64,000 bases of DNA, taken from contig MU839117.1 in the NCBI GenBank assembly GCA_030685235.1, positions 1 through 64,000 of the forward strand, given 5' to 3'. Positions 27,271 to 64,000 of the stretch are shown here, piece by piece; the stretch's first letter is position 1; each line of letters starts with the position of its first letter. This DNA is from Copromyces sp. CBS 386.78. Its lineage: Eukaryota; Ascomycota; Sordariomycetes; Sordariales; Sordariaceae. The position numbers were made by a program, and so were the translations under genes. Below the pieces are notes generated by a model. The model saw nothing but the letters and a program-made list of their open reading frames with translations. It was not told the origin of the DNA and searched no databases.

Positions 27271-27535
27271 ATGCCTTCTTCCGCCGATTACAAGGTCCCC
27301 CAGCCGCAACAAACAATGGAGATGGTGACCCCTCAAGACGCCATCGTCTCCCAGCAACCTGTAAGTCGCTTTTCCTTTCCTTGCAGACAGGCTGGTGCCA
27401 AGACTAACCACAAGTCTGAACGTAACTCAGACAACCGAGCCACAGCCCGAGATGACCACAGAAGGAACACTACGCGGCGGCTTCGTCGAGGAGTGCAACT
27501 GCTGCTGCTGCGGAGAGGAGTGCGTTTGTTGCTAG
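27271..27535 (+). CDS. Small cysteine-cluster protein, 64 aa, function unknown
   Basis: CDS is join(27271..27360,27431..27535). Exon 1 encodes a P/Q-rich N-terminus ending 'AIVSQQP'. A 70-nt intron runs from GTAAGT to ACTCAG, with a GACTAAC branch site about 25 nt before the acceptor. Exon 2 encodes 'TTEPQPEMTTEGTLRGG' followed by 'FVEECNCCCCGEECVCC' and TAG. Eight cysteines lie in the last 14 residues. There is no signal peptide and no membrane segment. Similar C-terminal cysteine runs occur in CYSTM-type peptides, where they are palmitoylated or bind metal, but here the hydrophobic residues of that family are missing, so the role is open. The frame read straight through the intron is longer (125 codons) but lacks this structure. 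The ATG is preceded by a clean 5' UTR-like region. Confidence 0.75.
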
Positions 27536-29887: not shown

Positions 29888-32800
29888 ATGGCTGTCAGCA
29901 TGAACGGCCCGATGGTGCGTCCGGGCCCATCATATCACCCTACAGTCAACAACAGGGAGGAGGAATGGGAGGATTGGTCCGACGATGAACCATTCACTCC
30001 CATTCAAGAGGAGGATGGCGAGCTCACTCCCCTCACCCCGACCTCCAGCAGCCCTTACAGCACCAATAACAACTATACGACGAAACCACCAACACAACGC
30101 ACATCTTTCTCGGCGGCTCGACAGTCCATGCAGAGAATCAGGCGTGTAAGGTCACGTCAGAGGCAAAAGGCACAGAATGCCAGCCTTGGCATCAAGTTGA
30201 TCACAGACATGACCAAGCTGAGGCAGCAGCAATTACAACAACAGTTAGCCAACCAGGAGGCTCGGAACAAAGGAAAGGGGAGGGGAAAGTTTGCGGACGC
30301 GGCTGCACTGAACGCATTGGAAGGAATGGCTTCAGACGAATCCATCGGCACTTTTGCTTGGCTAAGGAAGAAAAGGAGCAGCCCAGCCTCAGCTACTCCG
30401 GTCGAGAGGAGGATGGATAGGCTTGCGGTAGACACACCTACCTCGGCCGAGCTTTCACCAGGTGTTGGCGGTATCATGATCGGGTTCGCCATGCCATCAG
30501 ATTCAACCGTCGTCATCAGTCCGCAAACTGCCGTCGTTGATACACCGGTCGACTTTGACAAGTACTTCTCTCCGCCTCCCACAGGAAAACAGCCCGTCTC
30601 AGTCTGGTCACCAGACACTCCGGATTCCCAATTCACAATCAACTCGTACAGGACAGCAGGTCCCAGTGCTGGCACCGTGCCGGCTGTCCCTGCGGTTCCC
30701 AACAAATACAGAGATACCCGGGCGACGGAATTCTACGTCAGCGACAATGAAGATGATTTACTCACTCCAATGGGATATGGAAAGTCGCACCCACCAAGGG
30801 TCACTCCCACGGCCTACTTCAGCGACGAGGATGACGACATGGCCACTCCGGTCACTTTGTTCGAGGAGGATGGAAGCCCTGTGGCGACGCGGCAGAGGTC
30901 CATCACCAAATCAAAGAGCCCTGTGTCTGCGACATTAACCGCACGGTCACAACAAGGCTGGTGGGATCAGATTACTTCGCCATTCACACAAAGCCCGGTA
31001 ATGTCAAGGACTCCTGTTACCAGCATTCAAGAGGAGGACGACAAACAAGAGTGGTGGAAGGCGGGCAACAACAACGGGTCTTTGTCTTCCAACAACAATG
31101 ACCTTGCTCAGGGGTCCACGGGAAGTGCCGTGAGGGCCAATCGACCTCCCATGATAGTTATTGAGGACGTCTCGCAAGTAGAAGCTTCTTCTTCCTCTTC
31201 TTACATCCCGTTCGCGGCATCGTCAACAGCGATAGCATCTTCCTCTTCTTCAGCAGCAGCAGCAGCGATGCCGACAACAGCACCTATGGCTCAACGACCG
31301 CACTCCCATGCCGAGAAAGCACGCATATTGATCGAGGAGAACGAACCGACGACCGCGGAATTGCCTCCCCCTTACTCGCCCCCGAAGAAGAACCAAAACG
31401 CCCGGAATGTCCAGACCGCCGAGAATGTCCGATATCGAGCCGTCTTTCCTCCCAGTCATCCGCTGAACTCCATGTACCCGCCGTCTCCAGGCCCGATTTC
31501 TCCTGGTCTGGCACAGACGATGACCTCACAAGGTGCGATCGATTTGCCCTACGTTCCTGCAAGGCCGCCTCCCGCCAGACCTGCGGTCCATCATAGAGAC
31601 TTCCCAGCGCCGCCGCTCAGTGCCTTCGTACCCGCTACTCAAAGGCTGAAAGCCGAGGAAAAACGGCGCCGCAACGAGAAGGAGGACGCAATGGCACGCA
31701 AGGTCGGTGGATTGTGGAGAGGACGTGGCTGCATCCCAGCAAGTGGCTGCTTTGGTCGGCCTGGCCGGGAAGGCAGGAAGCGCAGGCGGTGGTGTTTGGC
31801 CTTGTTCCTTGTGGCTCTCGGGTTGATAGCGCTCGCTGTGGCTCTCGGGGTTGTCTTATCACGTCCCAAGCCTGGCAAGCCCGCCCCTTACTCGCCTTGG
31901 CTCAACCTCACAGATTTCCCACCAATTCCTACCGGCATCTCCACGGTCATTGGCACCGATTCTGTTACTGATGCCTCATGCGCCCAGGATCCGCGCTTCT
32001 GGAGTTGCGCTCTGCCTAAAGACCAGACTGCCCAGGCGGAACCGTTTGCTGCCGATCAGCCCAGTTTCATTATCCAGATCCAGTTCGACAACAGCACGCA
32101 AAAAGCGTGGAATGTCACGGGCCAGGCAATCCCTACGCCTACTCCCACTAAGGATGCCGAAGCCACTGCTTCGCCGTCCCAGACTGGGAGCAACAAGAGC
32201 TCGGTTACTAATGGTACCCAAGCAAACCAGACGAGGGGACAGCGCCCACAATCAGGCGGCGAACCGATGGGCTTCATCTCGGTTGTCAAGAGACTTTTGG
32301 GTCGTCAGATCCAGCAAACTCCCAGCGCTGGGTTCATCCCTCGCCCATCCCCGCCCGAATTTCAAGATATGTACTTCTTGGGAAACAACACCGACGGTAT
32401 TGTGTCCGCAGCCAAAGCCGGAGAACCGACTCCGTTCTACATCAGCATTCTTCGCACTCTCGATGATTCGGTTGGGCCCAACATGCTCACCCGTCGCAAC
32501 CCTGAGGTTGATTCTGCCTCCAATCAGCTCAGTAGGCGCCAATCCAATGGCCGCGTCGATCTTTCCTTCATCCCTCCTGTCCTAAACTCCGACGGAACCG
32601 GCGCCCCAGCCATACTCATGCCGTTCCCTACGCAGCAGCCTCTCCGCCTGTTCGATCGCGGCCTGCCGACCGAGCACTTCGGCTTCTACACCTACTTCAA
32701 CAAAACCGTCTACCTGACCGGCGATGCCTCGTCCGACCGCGTCGGCGGCTCTACCGCCTCCGACTCCAAGTTCGTCATCACCTGGCTCTCGGCGCGCTAC

Positions 32801-33160
32801 AAGGTGGAAATCTGGACGCGGCAGGTCAACGCCACCCGTCTGCTGGGGTCGCAATCCAACGGCGGAGCTGCGAACAACAACAGCACGCGTCCGGGTTCTT
32901 TCCCGTACCCCGTCACCGTCACGCTGGATACCCACGGTGGAATACCGGGAAGGAAGTTTGCGTTTAGTCGTGGGGTCGCAGATGGGGGCAAAATCCTGAT
33001 GAACGATACCAAGTTTATCCTGAATAACATGAACCAGACAGGTGATTGGGTCAACCCCGGCGCGACGTTTAATCCGAGCTTTGGTGGGATGGATGGAGGT
33101 ACCGGAGGGTGTCAGTGCAGGTATACCAACTGGGTGAAGTTGAATGCAGGCGATGCTTGA
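29888..33160 (+). CDS. Large single-pass membrane protein, 1090 aa, unrecognised family
   Basis: One uninterrupted frame. The ATG at 29888 (CACGATGGCT) is chosen because the frame upstream opens only at a TTG. Residues 1-about 630 are low-complexity S/T/P/Q/E-rich and probably disordered, with repeated acidic-proline motifs of the FTPIQEEDGELTPLTP type and SISPxx-like phosphosites. A strongly basic stretch (GRKRRRW) precedes one hydrophobic helix at about 635-657 (LALFLVALGLIALAVALGVVL). The following about 430 residues carry many N-glycosylation sequons (NLT, NST, NVT, NKS, NGT, NQT, NNT) and paired cysteines. No signal peptide is seen, so a type II topology (N-in, C-out) is inferred. It could be a cell-surface or wall-sensing protein; this is not supported by a known domain. 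It lies upstream of, and codirectional with, the Qri7-type gene. Confidence 0.85.
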   Translation: MAVSMNGPMVRPGPSYHPTVNNREEEWEDWSDDEPFTPIQEEDGELTPLTPTSSSPYSTNNNYTTKPPTQRTSFSAARQSMQRIRRVRSRQRQKAQNASLGIKLITDMTKLRQQQLQQQLANQEARNKGKGRGKFADAAALNALEGMASDESIGTFAWLRKKRSSPASATPVERRMDRLAVDTPTSAELSPGVGGIMIGFAMPSDSTVVISPQTAVVDTPVDFDKYFSPPPTGKQPVSVWSPDTPDSQFTINSYRTAGPSAGTVPAVPAVPNKYRDTRATEFYVSDNEDDLLTPMGYGKSHPPRVTPTAYFSDEDDDMATPVTLFEEDGSPVATRQRSITKSKSPVSATLTARSQQGWWDQITSPFTQSPVMSRTPVTSIQEEDDKQEWWKAGNNNGSLSSNNNDLAQGSTGSAVRANRPPMIVIEDVSQVEASSSSSYIPFAASSTAIASSSSSAAAAAMPTTAPMAQRPHSHAEKARILIEENEPTTAELPPPYSPPKKNQNARNVQTAENVRYRAVFPPSHPLNSMYPPSPGPISPGLAQTMTSQGAIDLPYVPARPPPARPAVHHRDFPAPPLSAFVPATQRLKAEEKRRRNEKEDAMARKVGGLWRGRGCIPASGCFGRPGREGRKRRRWCLALFLVALGLIALAVALGVVLSRPKPGKPAPYSPWLNLTDFPPIPTGISTVIGTDSVTDASCAQDPRFWSCALPKDQTAQAEPFAADQPSFIIQIQFDNSTQKAWNVTGQAIPTPTPTKDAEATASPSQTGSNKSSVTNGTQANQTRGQRPQSGGEPMGFISVVKRLLGRQIQQTPSAGFIPRPSPPEFQDMYFLGNNTDGIVSAAKAGEPTPFYISILRTLDDSVGPNMLTRRNPEVDSASNQLSRRQSNGRVDLSFIPPVLNSDGTGAPAILMPFPTQQPLRLFDRGLPTEHFGFYTYFNKTVYLTGDASSDRVGGSTASDSKFVITWLSARYKVEIWTRQVNATRLLGSQSNGGAANNNSTRPGSFPYPVTVTLDTHGGIPGRKFAFSRGVADGGKILMNDTKFILNNMNQTGDWVNPGATFNPSFGGMDGGTGGCQCRYTNWVKLNAGDA

Positions 33161-33895: not shown

Positions 33896-35731
33896 ATGAG
33901 GCAGCTAAATCTCTTCCACGGTAGTGGACTACGAGCATGGACAGCAAGAGGAGGTCTGGGGATCAGTCGTGCTCGACAGGTGCGGCCACAACAGCCATGG
34001 AATATAAAACAAGCATCTCCCCCGAGAACCATGAGCACATCTCATGACCCAACATCAACACCAAAACCAACATCCACTCAAACATCAACACCAGAATCAA
34101 CATGCAACATGCATATCGCCCATCGAAACAAGGCCAACTGGGCTCAGCCGGACCAGAACGTCCCGGAATATGTGAGGCCCACTAAGCGCCTCCCGACAGA
34201 ACTCCTGACCCTGGCCATCGAGACATCCTGCGATGACACATGCGTTGCCCTCCTTCAAAGCTACGAGAGCACCGAGAACCTCAAGAATAAACCCGAAATG
34301 GTGGCCCATCTCCTCTTCAACAAGAAAATCACTTCAGATCAGCGCCAGTTCGGCGGCGTCCACCCGGCCGTCGCCGTCGAGTGGCATCAGCGCCATCTCG
34401 CAACCCTGGTCCAGGAAGCCATCCAGTCTCTTCCCGAAGCTGGCCCCTCGGGCAATCAATCTTACCAGACAATGAGAAAGCCCAAGCAGCACATAAAGCC
34501 CGACCTCATCGCCGTCACACGGGGGCCCGGCATGCCCACCAGCCTGGCCACCGGCATGGAAGTAGCCAAGGGTCTCGCTTTGGCCTGGGGCATCCCGATC
34601 GTGGGCGTCCACCACATGCAAGCACACGCTCTGACGCCGCAGCTCGTCGAAGCTCTCGACCGCTCCGCTGGTCCCAGCCTCGCATCATCCCCATGGGCAC
34701 AACGCCAACAGCCCGAACAGCAGGCAGCATCGAAGAAGCAGGAAGAGGCTGAGCACCCCAGTCTCGACTACCCCTACCTCAACCTTCTCGTCTCAGGCGG
34801 CCACACGCAACTAGTCTACTCTGTCTCGTTGACCTCTCATCTCATCCAGTGCACGACCGATAACATCGCGCTAGGCGACATGCTCGACAAAGCCGCGCGC
34901 AAGATCTTGCCCGCTTCGGTTTTGGAATCAGGCCAAAACGTCATGTACGCCGCCGCCCTAGAGCGCTTCGCCTTCCCCAGGTTCCCTGCGGGTGCCGACG
35001 AGAGGGAGTACAACTTCGAGTACACTCCGCCCGCCACGCGGGCCGCCGAGATCGAGCAGCACAGCTCGCCCTACGGCTGGCACCTCTCGCCGCCTCTGTA
35101 CGCCTCTAGGAAGATGGAATACAACTTCACGGGCCTGGGATCCCAAGCGCAGCGCATCGCCGACACGCTGGACAAATTCTCTTCGTACGAGAATGCGCGG
35201 GATCAGGTCCTTTCGCGGGAGGACTCTCCGGAGTCCGACAATGCGTCTTACTTGGCCCCCTCGGTCAACTCGGACGACTCCAGCGCCCCTCGCCTCTCGC
35301 CGGCCCTCGAGGAAAAAGACCAGATCGAACAGCGCCGCTACTTGGCCCGTGCGGTTATGCAGCTGGCGTTTGAGCACCTCGCCTCGCGCATCGTCATGGT
35401 GCTCCAGCAGCAGGCGAAGCACGCAGGCGAAGCACAAAAGGTTAAGACGCTCGTGGTGTCGGGCGGGGTGGCCAGCAACCAGTTTCTGAGGCACGTCCTA
35501 AGACGCGTGCTGGAGGTGCGCGGGTTCGGACATATCCGGATTATGGCTCCGCCTGTGAACCTGTGTACGGACAACGCGGCCATGATTGCGTGGACGGGGT
35601 CGGAGATGTATAGGGCGGGGTGGGTGAGCAAGCTGGACATGTTGCCGATTAAGAAGTGGAGCATGAGTTCGACGGGCGAGCAGGGCGGGATCTTGGGGAC
35701 GGATCAGAAGCCCTTTTATGTGAGGCGTTGA
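33896..35731 (+). CDS. qri7: tRNA N6-adenosine threonylcarbamoyltransferase, mitochondrial (Qri7/Kae1/TsaD family)
   Basis: 611 aa, no intron. Transfers threonylcarbamoyl to A37 of ANN-reading tRNAs (t6A). The first about 45 residues are R-rich with no acidic residue (RAWTARGGLGISRARQVRP), a likely mitochondrial presequence, pointing to the organelle form (Qri7) rather than the cytosolic KEOPS subunit. The ASKHA core is complete: 'LAIETSCDDTCVALL' (106-120), metal-binding 'HHMQAHAL' (239-246), 'LLVSGGHTQLVYS', 'GDMLDKAARKIL', 'YNFTGLGSQ', 'VVSGGVASNQFLR' and 'CTDNAAMIAWTG' near the C-terminus. It is longer than bacterial TsaD because of a Q/E-rich insert after the HxxxH motif and an acidic Ser-rich insert after the FTGL motif. 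A second ATG at codon 46 (MSTSHDP) could give a form without presequence. It converges with pre2. Confidence 0.93.
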   Translation: MRQLNLFHGSGLRAWTARGGLGISRARQVRPQQPWNIKQASPPRTMSTSHDPTSTPKPTSTQTSTPESTCNMHIAHRNKANWAQPDQNVPEYVRPTKRLPTELLTLAIETSCDDTCVALLQSYESTENLKNKPEMVAHLLFNKKITSDQRQFGGVHPAVAVEWHQRHLATLVQEAIQSLPEAGPSGNQSYQTMRKPKQHIKPDLIAVTRGPGMPTSLATGMEVAKGLALAWGIPIVGVHHMQAHALTPQLVEALDRSAGPSLASSPWAQRQQPEQQAASKKQEEAEHPSLDYPYLNLLVSGGHTQLVYSVSLTSHLIQCTTDNIALGDMLDKAARKILPASVLESGQNVMYAAALERFAFPRFPAGADEREYNFEYTPPATRAAEIEQHSSPYGWHLSPPLYASRKMEYNFTGLGSQAQRIADTLDKFSSYENARDQVLSREDSPESDNASYLAPSVNSDDSSAPRLSPALEEKDQIEQRRYLARAVMQLAFEHLASRIVMVLQQQAKHAGEAQKVKTLVVSGGVASNQFLRHVLRRVLEVRGFGHIRIMAPPVNLCTDNAAMIAWTGSEMYRAGWVSKLDMLPIKKWSMSSTGEQGGILGTDQKPFYVRR

Positions 35732-57946: not shown

Positions 57947-59860
57947 TTATTCCTCACTCTTCGTCCTCTCACTCTCCGACTGCCCCTCAACAACAAGCGG
58001 AACAATAACAGTCAAAATCCCATCCTCCAACTTCGCCTTAATCCGCTTCCAATCTACTCCTCTTTGCCGTTGCTGGTTTCCAGGTGTAGGTGCGTCCGTA
58101 ATGAAGTTGACTCGCTTTGAAAACCTACCGACAGGAATTCTTTCTTCTAATGTACTCTGGAACTGGGACTGGAGCTGGTTGTTACTGGTGGTGGTCTCAG
58201 TAGTGGTAATTATGAAGCCGTCATCGTCGTCGCTTCTTTTAGAGATATTCCCTACAGACGGAACCGAGTTCGACTTTGAGTTTGAGTTTGATGAGTGAGA
58301 AACTGCGCTTGATCTGGACTTCCGCTCATAAGCCAGCCACAGCTCCAAGTCTGCTTCGAAGTCGGATTTTGACTCCTGGAATGAGGCCCGGTTCAAAAGC
58401 CGACCAGAGGCGTGACTCGAACCATCAGCTACCCCCGCCTCCGTCTCCCTCTCCCTCTCGCTTTCGGAATTTGATTCAAGAGAAGAAGATGATGATGATG
58501 ATGATGAATCTGGATCTACGCCGGAATCAACATTCCGATACAAAACCCCACTAACCGTCAACACATCCGCATTAGGGTCGTAAGCAATGCTGATATCCCG
58601 CCGCTTAAAGCCGGGAATGGCGAGCTGGATGGTGAAGGATGTGGGAGAGGACCGGAAGATGTCGAGGGGTGGGGAGATGAGGGGGGGTTGTTCTTCTTCT
58701 TCCTCTTCTTCGTCCTCTTCATCTTCCTCGTCTTCTTCTGGCTGTGGCTGGATCTCCGGGTTGGTTGGGGTTTGTGTAATGGTGTGGGCTGCGATGGTGT
58801 TGGTGGTGTCGATAAAGGACCGGCGGCAACTATGGCAGTGAGGGCAGTCGTGCCACTCGTCGTTATCAAAGTCGGGGTCGTCCTGGTCGTCGTTTTTATT
58901 GTTATTCTTAATGTTGTTTCCCTTGTCGTCTCTCCTGCTATCGTTTATGTTGTCTTCGCTGTCTTCCTTGTCTTTCTCGTTCTTCCTGTCCTTCTCTTCG
59001 TCACTGTCTTCAATGAAGCACCAACTCTCATCATCCGAATCGGTTTCTTCCCCTGGGGCTGTTACAAAAACGTAACCTTCTTCCTGATCCTTCTTCCCTT
59101 TCCCCTTCTGCTCCAATTTCTCATCTTCTTCCTCTTTCCCCTTCTCCTCTTCATCTCCCGTTCCTTCCTCCTTTTCCTTGTACCTTCCCTCCTCCTCCTT
59201 CTCCTCGTTCTTTCCCTCCTCCTCTCCCTCGTTCTTTCCCGTCTCATGCTCCTCCTCACCTGCCTGTTCCTCACTTCCTGAGTCAGAAGATCCCTCATCA
59301 CCACCCTCATCCTCCTCAAACCTCTCCAAAAACTCGCTCATACCCAAATACCGAACCCCATGATACCAACCCGCTTTTCCCAAACCACCACCCACACCAC
59401 CCAACGCACCCGTCCCCTCCTCGCTGTTCGTCCTTTCGTCGAAAGCTTTCATTCTGGCTATGTTCGCCAGGACTTGAAAAAGTTCGGTGTACTCCTCGTC
59501 GCTCTCTTCTTCCTCTCCCTCTTCCTCTGCGTTATCGTCGTTTTCGTCCTCTTCTTCGTCTTCCCATTCCTCATCGTCGTCATCGTCTTCGTTGTCTTCG
59601 TCATAACCATCATCGTCATCTCTTTGCTGATGCTGTGGTCGGTTCTCCATTTGTCTCTGCTCCTCTTGGCCCTCGATGATTTCCTTGTCCTTCCCCTTTT
59701 CTTCGCGAGTTGGTCGCTTGTTGTTACTGTAGTCTGAAGAAACAAGAGGTCGTGAATAGTTAACCGGTGTTGAAGGCACTGGGGGATTTGCTGGGTTTGG
59801 GGCTGGTACAGATGGAGGAGTATCAGTACTCGGGGGAGCTGTTGGTGCTTTTTCGTCCAT
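57947..59860 (-). CDS. Acidic protein with a split alpha-crystallin (Hsp20) domain
   Basis: 637 aa, one uninterrupted frame from ATG 59860. Residues 50-390 are overwhelmingly D/E/K/N (several runs of more than ten acidic residues). A small Cys/His patch 'CPHCHSC' lies at 339-345. The alpha-crystallin domain appears in two parts. The first half is 394-443 ('PPLDIFRSSPTSFTIQLAIP', 'ISIAYDPNADVLTVSGVLYR'). The second half is 572-623 ('EERIPVGRFSKRVNF' and the hallmark 'KAKLEDGILTVIVPL'). About 128 Ser-rich residues separate them at the position of the loop before the ERxxGxF strand of Hsp30-type proteins. It probably acts as an ATP-independent chaperone or a nucleic-acid/histone-associated acidic protein; the role is inferred only from the domain. 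Usual fungal sHSPs are about 150-250 aa. Convergent with sec10. Confidence 0.8.
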   Translation of the reverse strand: MDEKAPTAPPSTDTPPSVPAPNPANPPVPSTPVNYSRPLVSSDYSNNKRPTREEKGKDKEIIEGQEEQRQMENRPQHQQRDDDDGYDEDNEDDDDDEEWEDEEEDENDDNAEEEGEEEESDEEYTELFQVLANIARMKAFDERTNSEEGTGALGGVGGGLGKAGWYHGVRYLGMSEFLERFEEDEGGDEGSSDSGSEEQAGEEEHETGKNEGEEEGKNEEKEEEGRYKEKEEGTGDEEEKGKEEEDEKLEQKGKGKKDQEEGYVFVTAPGEETDSDDESWCFIEDSDEEKDRKNEKDKEDSEDNINDSRRDDKGNNIKNNNKNDDQDDPDFDNDEWHDCPHCHSCRRSFIDTTNTIAAHTITQTPTNPEIQPQPEEDEEDEEDEEEEEEEQPPLISPPLDIFRSSPTSFTIQLAIPGFKRRDISIAYDPNADVLTVSGVLYRNVDSGVDPDSSSSSSSSSLESNSESERERETEAGVADGSSHASGRLLNRASFQESKSDFEADLELWLAYERKSRSSAVSHSSNSNSKSNSVPSVGNISKRSDDDDGFIITTTETTTSNNQLQSQFQSTLEERIPVGRFSKRVNFITDAPTPGNQQRQRGVDWKRIKAKLEDGILTVIVPLVVEGQSESERTKSEE

Positions 59861-60680
59861 GACTGACTGATTGGGATAAATATGCTTCTGTTGGTGAGAT
59901 CGTGTGCTGGTCTAGAAGCGGTTTAGCAGGAAATGAAGACGATACAAGATCCGATAGTAAAGTGTCTCTAGGAAGGGAGAATGGTTAGTTCAAGTGAATT
60001 CTTCTTCATATATCTTCCCACATCTCCCCTACCATCATATACGATAGATGAAGCAGTCTTCTTGTTCAAGCAGAGATGATTAACCTGTGCGATAATATGA
60101 GCCACCATATGGTTTACCACGAGCCCCTTTCTCAGTGTGGTCTTGGTCAGGTCTTAGACGGCTAGACTGTATGACAAGCCTTCGTCCAACTTTACCCGCG
60201 TGGGCAAGACCGGCCAAGCACTTCGCAATGACACAGACACCGGTAGCACCAGGAAGCCAAAAACCCCCACTCAGACAGCTAACTTCCAGAACAATCCCGA
60301 ACATCAGTACAGATGCAAAACTCTCGTGTAATCCCATTCCCGTCAAGTGCCATTCTCCCGTTCATCATGACTCCCTAATTATTTTTATTTGCGTACTCCT
60401 ATTTAGGGGGGGTATATCCAATACAAACCGCTCATTTTTTTATTAATCTCCTGGACCCACCCACGGGACATGTTAACATACCTTGTATCCTGAAACCAGG
60501 ACCATTTTGCCCATTTCCAACACCCGCGTCATTATACCCAAAAGACAATCAACCTTTTTACTGCCCCCTTCCCGGCTCGCCTTGTTTGTACACCCATGTT
60601 TTGTCGCACGTGTTGAAAGATAACCCGTGCGTGTGCGTATGTTGAAACTCTTTCATCTGATCTCTCAACACCCTTCTTTT
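59861..60680. other. Intergenic: promoter of the Hsp20-like gene and 3' flank of nuc-1
   Basis: No gene seen. No clear nGAAn heat-shock element array was found by eye. The right part is T-rich, suitable for the nuc-1 3' UTR. Confidence 0.5.
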
Positions 60681-63161
60681 CTATTCATCCATCGCGTCAC
60701 CACTGCCAGCTTTCAGGTCTCCATCCATGACCGAATTGGCCTCCGTGGTGGCAGCACCCGCATCTTCGGCAATGCCAGCTGGTGATCCAGACCCCGACAC
60801 GGCGCCGCCCTGCATTTTGATCTCCCCCAACTTCCTCTCCGCCTCTTCCGCCCTCTTGTTCGCCTCAGCCACCTCTTTCTGCAGCTGTTTGATGTACTCA
60901 ATCGCCATCTCCACCGTGCTCGCCTTGCTGTTGGGTATACCCCCACCAGCCTTGTCCTTATCCTTCTGGTTCTTATCCTCTTTGTCAGCACCCCCGCTGC
61001 CGCCACCACCACCGCTACTGCTATTGCCATCGTTATCTCCATCTCTGCCGTCTTTGCCGGGGGCTTTTGGAAGAAGCGTGGCAATCTCCTGCAGCGCCGA
61101 GTTGATCCTGTTCCTCCTGCCTTGCTCCGCAATCTTGTGTGACGTCCGCTTCGATGTTAGGTTGGTGGAAAGCTCGCTAGGGTAGGAAACGCCGGGAACG
61201 GTGTTACCTTCGAGGATACGCTGGTAGTTGGATTTGGTGGCGAGCAGGAGCGATGCTGCGTCATCGGCACCCGCGGATCCTCCTGGTAGTAAAGGTTTGA
61301 TGCTGGGCGAGATCTTGGGACGAAGGGCCGGGGACATGTGTATCGAGCTCACGCTTGCACGCTTTTTGCCGAGTCTTCCAATGGGCAAAAGCTGGGGTGT
61401 CCGTTTCAAGCTATTCGCGGTATCGGGCTTCAGCTGCGGGCTGGGAAGAGTGGCGGAAGGAAGTGCCGGAGGCTTGGCTACCACAGAAGACGGTGGCGGT
61501 GGGAGGCTTGGCGTTTGTAGAGGCGCGGCCGCCTTTTGAATAGGATCGAGAGCCGGTGTTCCAAGAGTGGTGATGATAGGAGCGGGCTTTGGTGTCGACG
61601 AGAAGTTGATGGAATCTGGGAGCTCAAAGGTTTCGATATGGTCGGCATCCATTGGGTCATGAGCACCAGTTCCTGCCGCTGAAGGGTTGCGATTGCTCGG
61701 CGAGCTCAGTTTCATCAGTGATGCTGGCGTCGCAGGAGAGGCAATTCCAGGTCGGCCTGGTTGGAGGGTAATAGGCACAGCACTACTGCTCGCTTGAGGT
61801 GCCAGAAAGGGAGATGGTTTGGCGGAGCGAGACTTCGGAAGTGGTGGCGGGGGCATCTCAACTGGCGAGACAGCATCATTAAGGTTCTCGGGGGAGATGG
61901 ATCCATTCTCAGAGTCAGTTACACCAGCTGTGGGCGAATATGAAGTCTGTGTTAACGGCGTAGGAGGTTGTTGGCGTTCCTGACTTGTTGCTGCATTCTC
62001 GATCAGTTGATTCAGAGCTTGTGGGCTAAGCATGGGAGTGGTAGCCGTCTTTCTGCGTATCGGTTTCGAGATGGGAGACTGTTTGATGCCGGCGCCGCTC
62101 TTCGCTCTGGCCTTCACTGCGTTCTTGCGCATCTTCTTAGCCAAATCTCCTGGGCTAACGCTCGCTTGGGACAGGGCAGGTGGCTCGAGTGACATCTCTC
62201 TGGGCGAGTTCCCGTTCATCGTGCCGAGCCTCTGGTCGAGAATCCCCAAAGAGTCGTTTTGCGCATGCAAGGCTGGCGAGGTAAGGGGGCTGAAGTAGGC
62301 TCCGGGAACGGCAAAAGGCGTATCGATAGGGAAATGGGTCTCCAGCGGCGTGACGGCCGGTGATACCAACGGGGTGAATGACATCTGTCGGGGTTGGTCA
62401 GCGAAATCTGTGATTCGTTTGGACAGAACAGACTTCTCTAGACCTACATCATGCTGGTCTTTGATCCTTGTATATCTGTAGTCGACGACCTGTTGCCGTT
62501 GATGCTGCTGCGGTTGCTGTTGCTGTTGCTGTCGCCCGGAGTGGTGTTGATCAGATGGTGTTGACTGGGCATAGTAATTCTGACTAGATCCAGCAGTGAG
62601 TTCCAGGCTCTGAGGTGTTGGAGGAACTATGTGGTTCTGTTGAGAAGCGAAGAAGGCGACTTGCTGCTCTTGCAACCGTTGGTGCTGAGCGTGTAACTTC
62701 TGCTGCTGGAGGAACTGGATCTGAGCATCGATGTTGTTGAGGACAGCGTCCGAGGGCGTAGAGGGCTGTACCAAGGCTGTCGGGGCGTTCTGGTATGGCG
62801 CTGCCGTCGTAATCGCAGGCATCTGATGCTGCTGCTGGTGTTGATGTTGGTGTTGATGCTGCTGTTGCGCATGATGCTGAAGCATGGCGTGGTCTACAGG
62901 CGACAAGATCATGGACATGTCGGTACCGGTCATGGGGGTGTCCAACTGCTCACCCCCTGAAGAATGGAGCAGATGGTCGGCGGCATGGTGACCCGGATGG
63001 TGGTCGGCCGCAAAGTCGTGAAAGTCAAAGTTCAAAGCGCCGGACAGATCGCCAATGTCGTTTATATCCAAGAACTGGTTGAAGTCATCGTCGGCTGCGG
63101 TGTGTAGGGTCTGGTGGTGACTGTGACTGTGGTCCGGGCCACTCCACGACGAGGAGTCCAT
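60681..63161 (-). CDS. nuc-1: bHLH transcription factor NUC-1, phosphorus-acquisition regulator
   Basis: 826 aa, intronless; ATG at 63161 (an in-frame GTG precedes it). Activates phosphatase and phosphate-permease genes under phosphate starvation; held inactive by the PREG/PGOV cyclin-CDK pair, which NUC-2 opposes. The N-terminus is H/D-rich ('DFNQFLDINDIGDLSGALNF', an acidic/hydrophobic activation-like region). Poly-Q/QH tracts follow at about 95-230, then P/S-rich stretches with many SP/TP sites. The basic-helix1 'TSHKIAEQGRRNRINSALQE' is at about 673-692 with the E-box-reading H-E-R residues. The loop is exceptionally long (about 46 residues, G/D/K-rich). Helix 2 'KASTVEMAIEYIKQLQKEVA' leads into a short leucine-zipper-like coil. 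Length and arrangement agree with N. crassa NUC-1 (824 aa in the literature as I recall). A Pho4-like protein of another Sordariomycete would be the alternative. Confidence 0.93.
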   Translation of the reverse strand: MDSSSWSGPDHSHSHHQTLHTAADDDFNQFLDINDIGDLSGALNFDFHDFAADHHPGHHAADHLLHSSGGEQLDTPMTGTDMSMILSPVDHAMLQHHAQQQHQHQHQHQQQHQMPAITTAAPYQNAPTALVQPSTPSDAVLNNIDAQIQFLQQQKLHAQHQRLQEQQVAFFASQQNHIVPPTPQSLELTAGSSQNYYAQSTPSDQHHSGRQQQQQQPQQHQRQQVVDYRYTRIKDQHDVGLEKSVLSKRITDFADQPRQMSFTPLVSPAVTPLETHFPIDTPFAVPGAYFSPLTSPALHAQNDSLGILDQRLGTMNGNSPREMSLEPPALSQASVSPGDLAKKMRKNAVKARAKSGAGIKQSPISKPIRRKTATTPMLSPQALNQLIENAATSQERQQPPTPLTQTSYSPTAGVTDSENGSISPENLNDAVSPVEMPPPPLPKSRSAKPSPFLAPQASSSAVPITLQPGRPGIASPATPASLMKLSSPSNRNPSAAGTGAHDPMDADHIETFELPDSINFSSTPKPAPIITTLGTPALDPIQKAAAPLQTPSLPPPPSSVVAKPPALPSATLPSPQLKPDTANSLKRTPQLLPIGRLGKKRASVSSIHMSPALRPKISPSIKPLLPGGSAGADDAASLLLATKSNYQRILEGNTVPGVSYPSELSTNLTSKRTSHKIAEQGRRNRINSALQEIATLLPKAPGKDGRDGDNDGNSSSGGGGGSGGADKEDKNQKDKDKAGGGIPNSKASTVEMAIEYIKQLQKEVAEANKRAEEAERKLGEIKMQGGAVSGSGSPAGIAEDAGAATTEANSVMDGDLKAGSGDAMDE

Positions 63162-64000
63162 CACGCCCGCCGGCTAGGCCCTCCGGGGCCCTATTGTTTG
63201 ATCTGAAGTCCGGACTGAAGATTGTTCGGGGACGGCCGGCTATCCGGCACGGGTGCGGGTGCGGGTACGGGAACGGGTACGGGGGCTATGTGTGCTTTTC
63301 GTCTGGAGTAGCGGAGGCAGAACCAGTGGTTTCGAGACCGGTCGTTGGGTAATCAATTGAGTCGACCGACGTAAGGACGTCAAGGCCGCAGGTCAAAAAG
63401 CGGTTGGCTTATCTGGGTTTGATTTTGGACCTCTGGGCCGGCTCTGTTAGACGCCTGGCAATATTTGATCGGCAATGCGATGACGGATGACCGCTTGAAA
63501 GGGCCCTATAGTCTCGAAAGGTTTTGAGGCTTGGCCGGGTGTGTCCCGTCTTGGTGGCTCCGTAATTAGGCGGTACTAGGGGACAATGGACCCGAGGTGA
63601 TTGCCGAAGACGAACGGTTTCGGGCTCGCGGTCAGGTTTGCGCGACTCGGCGAAACATCCATTGATCAAGATGTCGGGTGCGCCACTGATTGGTAGCTCC
63701 CCAAGGACCCTTTGATGGATGCGTACGGGTAGAGATATTGGATTCGTTTGATGCTCTCTGTCGGTTGGATTGGAAGAGCATTAGTCGTAGGTAACCGACG
63801 TGGGACTCTTCCTTCACAAGTGTCTCAGGCTCTCAGCGTCTACGGGCGTCCTAGTGTCTCCTCACAGGTGGGAGGGGGGGAGAAAGAAGCCCAGGTAGAG
63901 AAACCTCACAGGTGGGGTGGGGGGGAGAAAAAAAGAAGCCCAGGCAGAGAAACGTCAAAAGGGTCCATCTACCTCAGCTCTAGACTTCGCCCGCCCCCGC
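63162..64000. promoter_or_regulatory. nuc-1 5' flank/leader with two tandem repeats
   Basis: Upstream of the minus-strand nuc-1 ATG. It contains a hexamer tract of GGGTGC/GGGTAC/GGGAAC type at 63,249-63,285 (about six units) and a tandem pair of about 44-50 bp units (63,860-63,903 and 63,904-63,953) of the form CCTCACAGGTGGG, G-run, GAGAAA, GAAGCCCAGG, AGAGAAA. On the nuc-1 sense strand these are C/T-rich. No separate gene is seen. The window ends here. Confidence 0.6.
63860..63953 (+). repeat. Two-copy tandem repeat upstream of nuc-1
   Basis: Copies at 63,860-63,903 and 63,904-63,953 share CCTCACAGGTGGG...GGGGGGAGAAA...GAAGCCCAGG(T/C)AGAGAAA; the second has extra G and A residues in its homopolymer runs. 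Confidence 0.85.

Follow-up and report, generated by a model that had tools for sequence, protein, structure and literature searches.

Gene structure at the locus

The window, a 64,000-nucleotide stretch of the genome of Copromyces sp. CBS 386.78, contains a spliced gene for a real 64-residue fungal protein, the parts of which are as follows.

27271 to 27360, + strand: exon 1 (90 nt), MPSSADYKVPQPQQTMEMVTPQDAIVSQQP, the Pro/Gln-rich N-terminal part, with no cysteine
27343 to 27360, + strand: codons 25-30, the hexamer IVSQQP, which fits the zDABM consensus and lies directly 5' of the intron
27361 to 27430, + strand: phase-0 intron (70 nt), GTAAGT ... CTAAC (27404) ... CTCAG
27431 to 27535, + strand: exon 2 (105 nt with the stop codon TAG), TTEPQPEMTTEGTLRGGFVEECNCCCCGEECVCC
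27473 to 27481, + strand: codons 45-47, RGG, invariant (47/47 aligned members) and just before the tail
27494 to 27532, + strand: codons 52-64, the cysteine-rich tail CNCCCCGEECVCC, which ends in CC and is read as a putative S-acylation cluster

The donor GTAAGT begins at 27361, the acceptor CAG ends at 27430, and CTAAC starts at 27404, 26 nt ahead of the intron end. Splicing yields a product of 64 residues, MPSSADYKVPQPQQTMEMVTPQDAIVSQQPTTEPQPEMTTEGTLRGGFVEECNCCCCGEECVCC, with eight cysteines within its last 13 residues; both the two-exon model and the C-terminal cluster had been proposed in a preliminary description of the locus, which placed the eight cysteines in the last 14 residues. At 100% identity, this product matches the deposited hypothetical protein QBC45DRAFT_412958 of Copromyces sp. 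CBS 386.78 (hit P0002; Sordariales), and thus the right gene model is already in the public annotation. The earlier warning that an ORF caller would err at this locus holds to the extent that an unspliced call gives a different frame, of 125 aa, but the public annotation had avoided the error.

The cluster had also been called unlikely to arise by chance. A 14-codon stretch with eight cysteines occurred in none of 60 dinucleotide shuffles of the 64-kb window. This null is lenient, given that eight or more cysteines also crowd into another 14-codon stretch of the actual sequence, in a low-complexity frame near 62.5 kb. The claim stands, with conservation among relatives as the real evidence for it.

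The second cysteine-dense stretch, at about 62503 in a + strand frame, reads CCCGCCCCCCRPEW; it is probably no gene but a low-complexity frame opposite a Gln/His-rich HLH gene at 60681-63173. Two further ORFs of the window, at 29888-33160 (1090 aa) and 57947-59911 (654 aa), have no Pfam match at E ≤ 0.001; judged by eye, the former contains a single hydrophobic stretch and the latter is very acidic in its first half.

Relatives and database matches

By profile similarity, the protein belongs to an unnamed family that is widespread in the Sordariomycetes. A search of the protein database with the single sequence gave six hits, a profile of four sequences gave 16 at E ≤ 10, including Pyricularia oryzae and Phialemonium, and a profile of 14 sequences gave 76 at E ≤ 10, of which 59 were at E ≤ 1e-3. 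With 59 database proteins at this level, the spliced protein is no chance reading. All six named taxa whose taxonomy was checked are Sordariomycetes, from the Sordariales, Hypocreales, Glomerellales, Ophiostomatales, Magnaporthales and Cephalothecales, and we take the remaining named hits (Diaporthe, Xylaria, Coniochaeta and others) to belong there too; since the searches need shared 5-residue words, this seemingly exclusive range may reflect the method.

Proteins with RGG, at least four cysteines behind it and a length of at most 73 aa were counted as tailed, and 49 of the 76 hits qualified. Forty-seven of these were aligned, the partial sequences P0034 and P0036 (the latter with one cysteine before RGG) being left out. 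The preliminary description had named a lack of cysteine-cluster conservation in related species as grounds for rejection; the database protein searches found the cluster conserved.

Of the 27 hits outside the full-length tailed set, 20 fit a pattern for an unspliced first exon. Eighteen of the 20 read ...QQP|V, as would a frame entering the GT donor, and two read QQ|V; as the pattern itself demanded V, these counts describe the frames of the relatives and do not test the border. To judge by these frames, the exon border looks conserved. The other seven are different models, such as P0023, which has a long extension behind its cysteine tail. In P0027, P0058, P0046 and P0049 an apparent second intron was seen by eye just before the cysteine tail, with frames that run RGGFVEE|VS or RGGEE|V, so that the deposited models of these four may lack the tail.

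The window protein matches no Pfam family. DUF4726 matched 2 of 14 members and later 3 of 47 (best E 0.025), and DUF7929 and DUF4106 matched one of the 47 each (E 0.052 and 0.59); all of these matches were dismissed as noise. The peptide had been thought to be of a distinct kind, which agrees with the lack of a Pfam match for the protein itself, the relatives giving weak DUF matches only. UniRef names conflict, P0017 being called 'Metallothionein' while the name of P0012 begins 'Cysteine-rich transmemb'. A literature search with family peptide strings and one accession found no description of the family, and none of the literature retrieved on Neurospora crassa CYSTM, metallothionein or small palmitoyl proteins was evidently about it. 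As far as these searches go, the family appears to be undescribed.

Protein anatomy and the cysteine-rich tail

Ten residues are invariant in the 47 aligned members (M1, Q13, M16, Q29, P30, R45, G46, G47, C55 and C63), none of which has a cysteine before RGG. The terminal CC is present in 48 of the 49 tails. The tail of the window protein consists of two EECxCC modules three residues apart, and four tail styles were distinguished: FxEECxCC[CG]xxEECxCC on the Neurospora side, CGExxDCCGxTE[SG]CGCC on the Diaporthe side, EEAGCExCCGLC[AG]C[DE]ExCC on the Xylaria/Colletotrichum/Stachybotrys side, and CCGxNCxFxKxCC in a paralog style. In the Xylaria/Colletotrichum/Stachybotrys type (17 tails) all seven cysteines are invariant, and in the Neurospora/Diaporthe type (25 tails) five are; five of the 47 tails fell outside both counts. 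The net charge of the tail is -4 or -5 in 37 of 47 members. An AlphaFold model of the window protein predicts no confident fold (pLDDT 57.6), with two short strands suggested in the tail (pLDDT ~70). Rab-type prenylation of the terminal CC was considered in thought only and dropped.

The strict conservation of cysteine positions within tail styles would also suit a metal-thiolate peptide, in which the tail binds Cu(I), Zn(II) or another soft metal and the N-terminal part targets or stabilises it. Neurospora copper metallothionein is a fungal metallothionein, small, with dense cysteines and CxC pairs. The family shares all three features, and the statement that the window peptide lacks CxC spacing was inaccurate, as its tail has two such pairs (CNC and CVC). 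The two CxCC modules give a compatible cysteine pattern, acidic residues are no obstacle to metal binding, and the UniRef name of P0017 points the same way. However, no metallothionein match was found in Pfam or among solved structures, which removes metallothionein as a family assignment and leaves it as a functional rival. Furthermore, cysteine alternates with hydrophobic residues at two places of the 25 Neurospora/Diaporthe-type tails, where position 8, counted from the R of RGG, is C, I, L or V and position 13 is C, F, M, I or V. Metal binding also leaves unaccounted for the invariant V/I..QP hexamer, the terminal CC and the conserved cysteine-free N-terminal part with its linear motif, all of which set the family apart from fungal metallothioneins. 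We regard a metal-binding role as unlikely, although it is the main rival.

A CYSTM-type, tail-anchored stress peptide would insert its cysteine-rich end into the membrane as a short helix. CYSTM peptides (PF12734) are likewise small, with a Pro/Gln-rich N-terminal part and a cysteine-rich C-terminus in which consecutive cysteines stand near an acidic residue (layout as given in the CYSTM text of PMC10217909), and the UniRef name of P0012 echoes them. The family nevertheless lacks a hydrophobic helix: the best 19-residue hydropathy is at most 0.69 in all 47 members, whereas the contig that carries the window has a CYSTM-like ORF that reaches 1.71. This upholds the earlier remark that a CYSTM-type hydrophobic stretch is missing. 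The PF12734 profile matches none of the 47, and there is no profile similarity to the CYSTM-like ORF of the same genome. CYSTM membership is ruled out on these three grounds, and a CYSTM-type mode of insertion is highly improbable. The CYSTM-like ORF itself (L004:1444-1662; G000:C39:257994-258113) ends GCFKGCMAALCCCFVGAECCECCADCCECCAECC and scores 14.6 bits against PF12734, below the cut-off of that profile.

A zDABM-type hexamer at the end of exon 1

The hexamer IVSQQP (VVTQQP in the family) at the end of exon 1 fits [VIAP][VIT]xxQP, the zDABM, which was defined for ZDHHC17/13 (PMC4571948) and through which SNAP25, among other substrates, binds to the ankyrin domain of human ZDHHC17. At this site 43 of the 47 full-length members fit, and the four misses (LVTEQP, TVTEQP, TVMQQP and TITQQP) differ at position 1 only, by L or T. 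Position 2 is V or I, and QP is kept, in 47/47; hence the places of V113, Q116 and P117, the residues that matter most in the SNAP25 motif (PMC4571948), hold V/I, Q and P in every member.

Other QP sites in the same proteins fit the consensus in 2 of 63 cases. A fitting hexamer was found in 5.8% of shuffled N-terminal parts; in eight neighbouring ORFs 2 of 15 QP sites fit, or 2 matches in 4,911 residues, from which about 0.026 matches would be expected per 64 aa. The fit in the family is tempered by these controls, which show that the motif is not rare once QP is given, and by the kinship of the 47 members, which are no independent draws. The CYSTM-like ORF of the same genome has no such hexamer. 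The third residue behind QP is glutamate in 41 of 47 members, and human ZDHHC17 is reported to disfavour acidic residues at the three positions that follow QP (PMC5655499).

A divergent paralog in the same genome has VISEQP before an intron that was read as equivalent, without annotation seen. This paralog (L006:1240-1692; G000:C121, match at 34160-34345), read as two exons, shows VISEQP, a GTAAGT intron, then LRGG and HFNCCGLNCGFSKTF; it is without the terminal CC, unlike the related P0056, P0062 and P0065 of other fungi. A likeness of LRGG to the end of ubiquitin was entertained only in thought and set aside.

Spacing between motif and cysteines

From the hexamer to the first tail cysteine there are 15-26 residues, with 17 in 21 of the 47 members. 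In SNAP25, 19 residues separate the zDABM from the cysteines; acylation tolerates the loss of four of them, which leaves 15, and also a longer flexible linker, but it is impaired by the loss of five or more, with some left at five and six (PMC7247313). By the SNAP25 standard, the distance is thus sufficient, although the order is reversed: SNAP25 has its cysteines first and then the motif, whereas here the motif comes first and the cysteines lie at the extreme C-terminus. The family shares with ZDHHC17 substrates of the SNAP25/SNAP23 type the six-residue [VIAP][VIT]xxQP, a similar linker length and a closely spaced cysteine cluster, and the CCGLCxC core of many relatives resembles SNAP25 CGLCVCPC (PMC7247313). 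It differs in being fungal and without SNARE domains, its acylation being predicted from sequence.

A C-terminal precedent is yeast Yck2, which is anchored via two C-terminal cysteines acylated by Akr1 (PMC8331233). Similar to the Akr1 substrates Yck1 and Yck2, the family has C-terminal cysteines, here a terminal CC, and the genome has an ankyrin-DHHC gene; in contrast to them, it has no kinase domain, more cysteines and an acidic tail.

The protein comprises little beyond its N-terminal part, motif, linker and tail, and it may be a regulator rather than a substrate, its hexamer occupying the Akr1 ankyrin groove in competition with true substrates while its cysteines keep it at the enzyme or take part in thiol chemistry. 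Binding to ZDHHC17 is not followed by robust acylation in several zDABM proteins (PMC7247313; PMC9800311). This role, with either function of the cysteines, is considered improbable, since both the linker length and the conserved CC end are what a substrate would have.

The ankyrin-DHHC enzyme of the genome

A search of the genome for DHHC gave seven matches, two of which are pieces of one gene at C56. In this gene ankyrin repeats precede the DHHC part, the layout of Akr1 and ZDHHC17. For the segment WAAINN...TPLQW of the encoded enzyme, the alignment with ZDHHC17 spans 56 residues and is equally long on both sides (3eu9 48-103; 5w7i 51-106). Among the 60 chains listed, only the three ZDHHC17 chains have a single stretch that passes 1e-6 alone; by summed E-value, multi-repeat ankyrins outrank ZDHHC17 among the matches listed. 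Places 5 and 35 of the segment are Asn and Trp, 30 apart like N100 and W130 of ZDHHC17, an equivalence drawn from aligned ranges and spacing rather than from a letter-by-letter alignment. Asn at the place of N100 is common in ankyrin repeats, and only the Trp is distinctive. None of the 11 fully shown repeat alignments of chain u71697 has Trp at that place. Both N100 and W130 have been reported as essential for zDABM binding (PMC9800311). A predicted model of the Akr1 ankyrin segment (pLDDT 42.6) was left out of the argument.

In yeast, the ankyrin repeats of Akr1 help Yck2 acylation, as described in PMC3234281, and are not strictly required for it. A literature on fungal palmitoylation exists (e.g. 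PMC11633104); in the excerpts of the literature that join Akr1 and zDABM, fungal recognition of the motif was not found described.

Proposed S-acylation by an Akr1-type enzyme

We consider it probable, with considerable room for doubt, that the window protein is S-acylated as an Akr1-type substrate and anchored in this way. It would be a small, cytosolic and largely disordered substrate of an Akr1/ZDHHC17-type ankyrin-repeat DHHC S-acyltransferase, with the IVSQQP/VVTQQP hexamer docking in the groove of the ankyrin domain and the 15-26-residue linker bringing the C-terminal cluster within range of the DHHC active site. Fatty acids would be attached to several cysteines of the tail, above all to the final CC, and would pin the peptide to the Golgi or plasma membrane; the conserved PQQQQPME segment would stay free on the cytosolic side, where it probably binds a partner. 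What the protein might do once anchored is a guess: it may be a membrane or stress adaptor, CYSTM-like in role. Gene structure, family, the conserved motif and tail, the absence of a hydrophobic helix by hydropathy and the ankyrin-DHHC gene are observed; we infer the disorder, docking, S-acylation and membrane location.

The Akr1-substrate reading is favoured because the hexamer fits at one fixed place while other QP sites rarely do, and because the paralog keeps VISEQP before what is apparently the same intron. It also draws on the linker length near that of SNAP25, the CCGLCxC core, the cysteine-free N-terminal part, the CC end of the tail, the Yck2 precedent, and an ankyrin-DHHC gene with the Asn/Trp pair in the organism's own genome; the lack of a confidently predicted fold, which would fit disorder, was counted in its favour as well. 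Against it stand the glutamate third after QP, the acidic tail, the order reversed relative to SNAP25, the paralog without CC, the multi-repeat ankyrins that outrank ZDHHC17, the partial need of Yck2 for the ankyrin repeats, and the dispensability of some zDABMs: Sprouty-2 has the motif, and its S-acylation does not need it (PMC9800311). Of the two functions first suggested for the peptide, palmitoylation or metal binding, the former is the better supported, since the family conserves a zDABM-type hexamer and nearly all its tails end in CC; metal binding is retained as the main rival.

The gene was already annotated, its function previously unread; what is new is the proposed zDABM/S-acylation reading. 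Substrate choice by DHHC enzymes is a long-standing problem. Work on vertebrates gave the zDABM rule, which its authors extended to all vertebrate ZDHHC17/13 and possibly to the Drosophila homologue (PMC4571948). Tentatively, and at slightly less than an even chance, the family may mean that the reading of [VIAP][VIT]xxQP by the ankyrin groove of DHHC enzymes is at least as old as the animal-fungal split, and that Sordariomycetes carry a widespread family of microproteins, built of motif, spacer and acylation tail, that are Akr1 substrates or regulators. A conserved fungal protein that resembles a stripped-down zDABM substrate would offer, in Neurospora or Podospora, a simple genetic test of whether fungal Akr1 reads the motif, and the family might serve as a reporter for Akr1 activity. 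The proposal also gives a reading for a family that now stands as 'hypothetical' or under conflicting automatic names.
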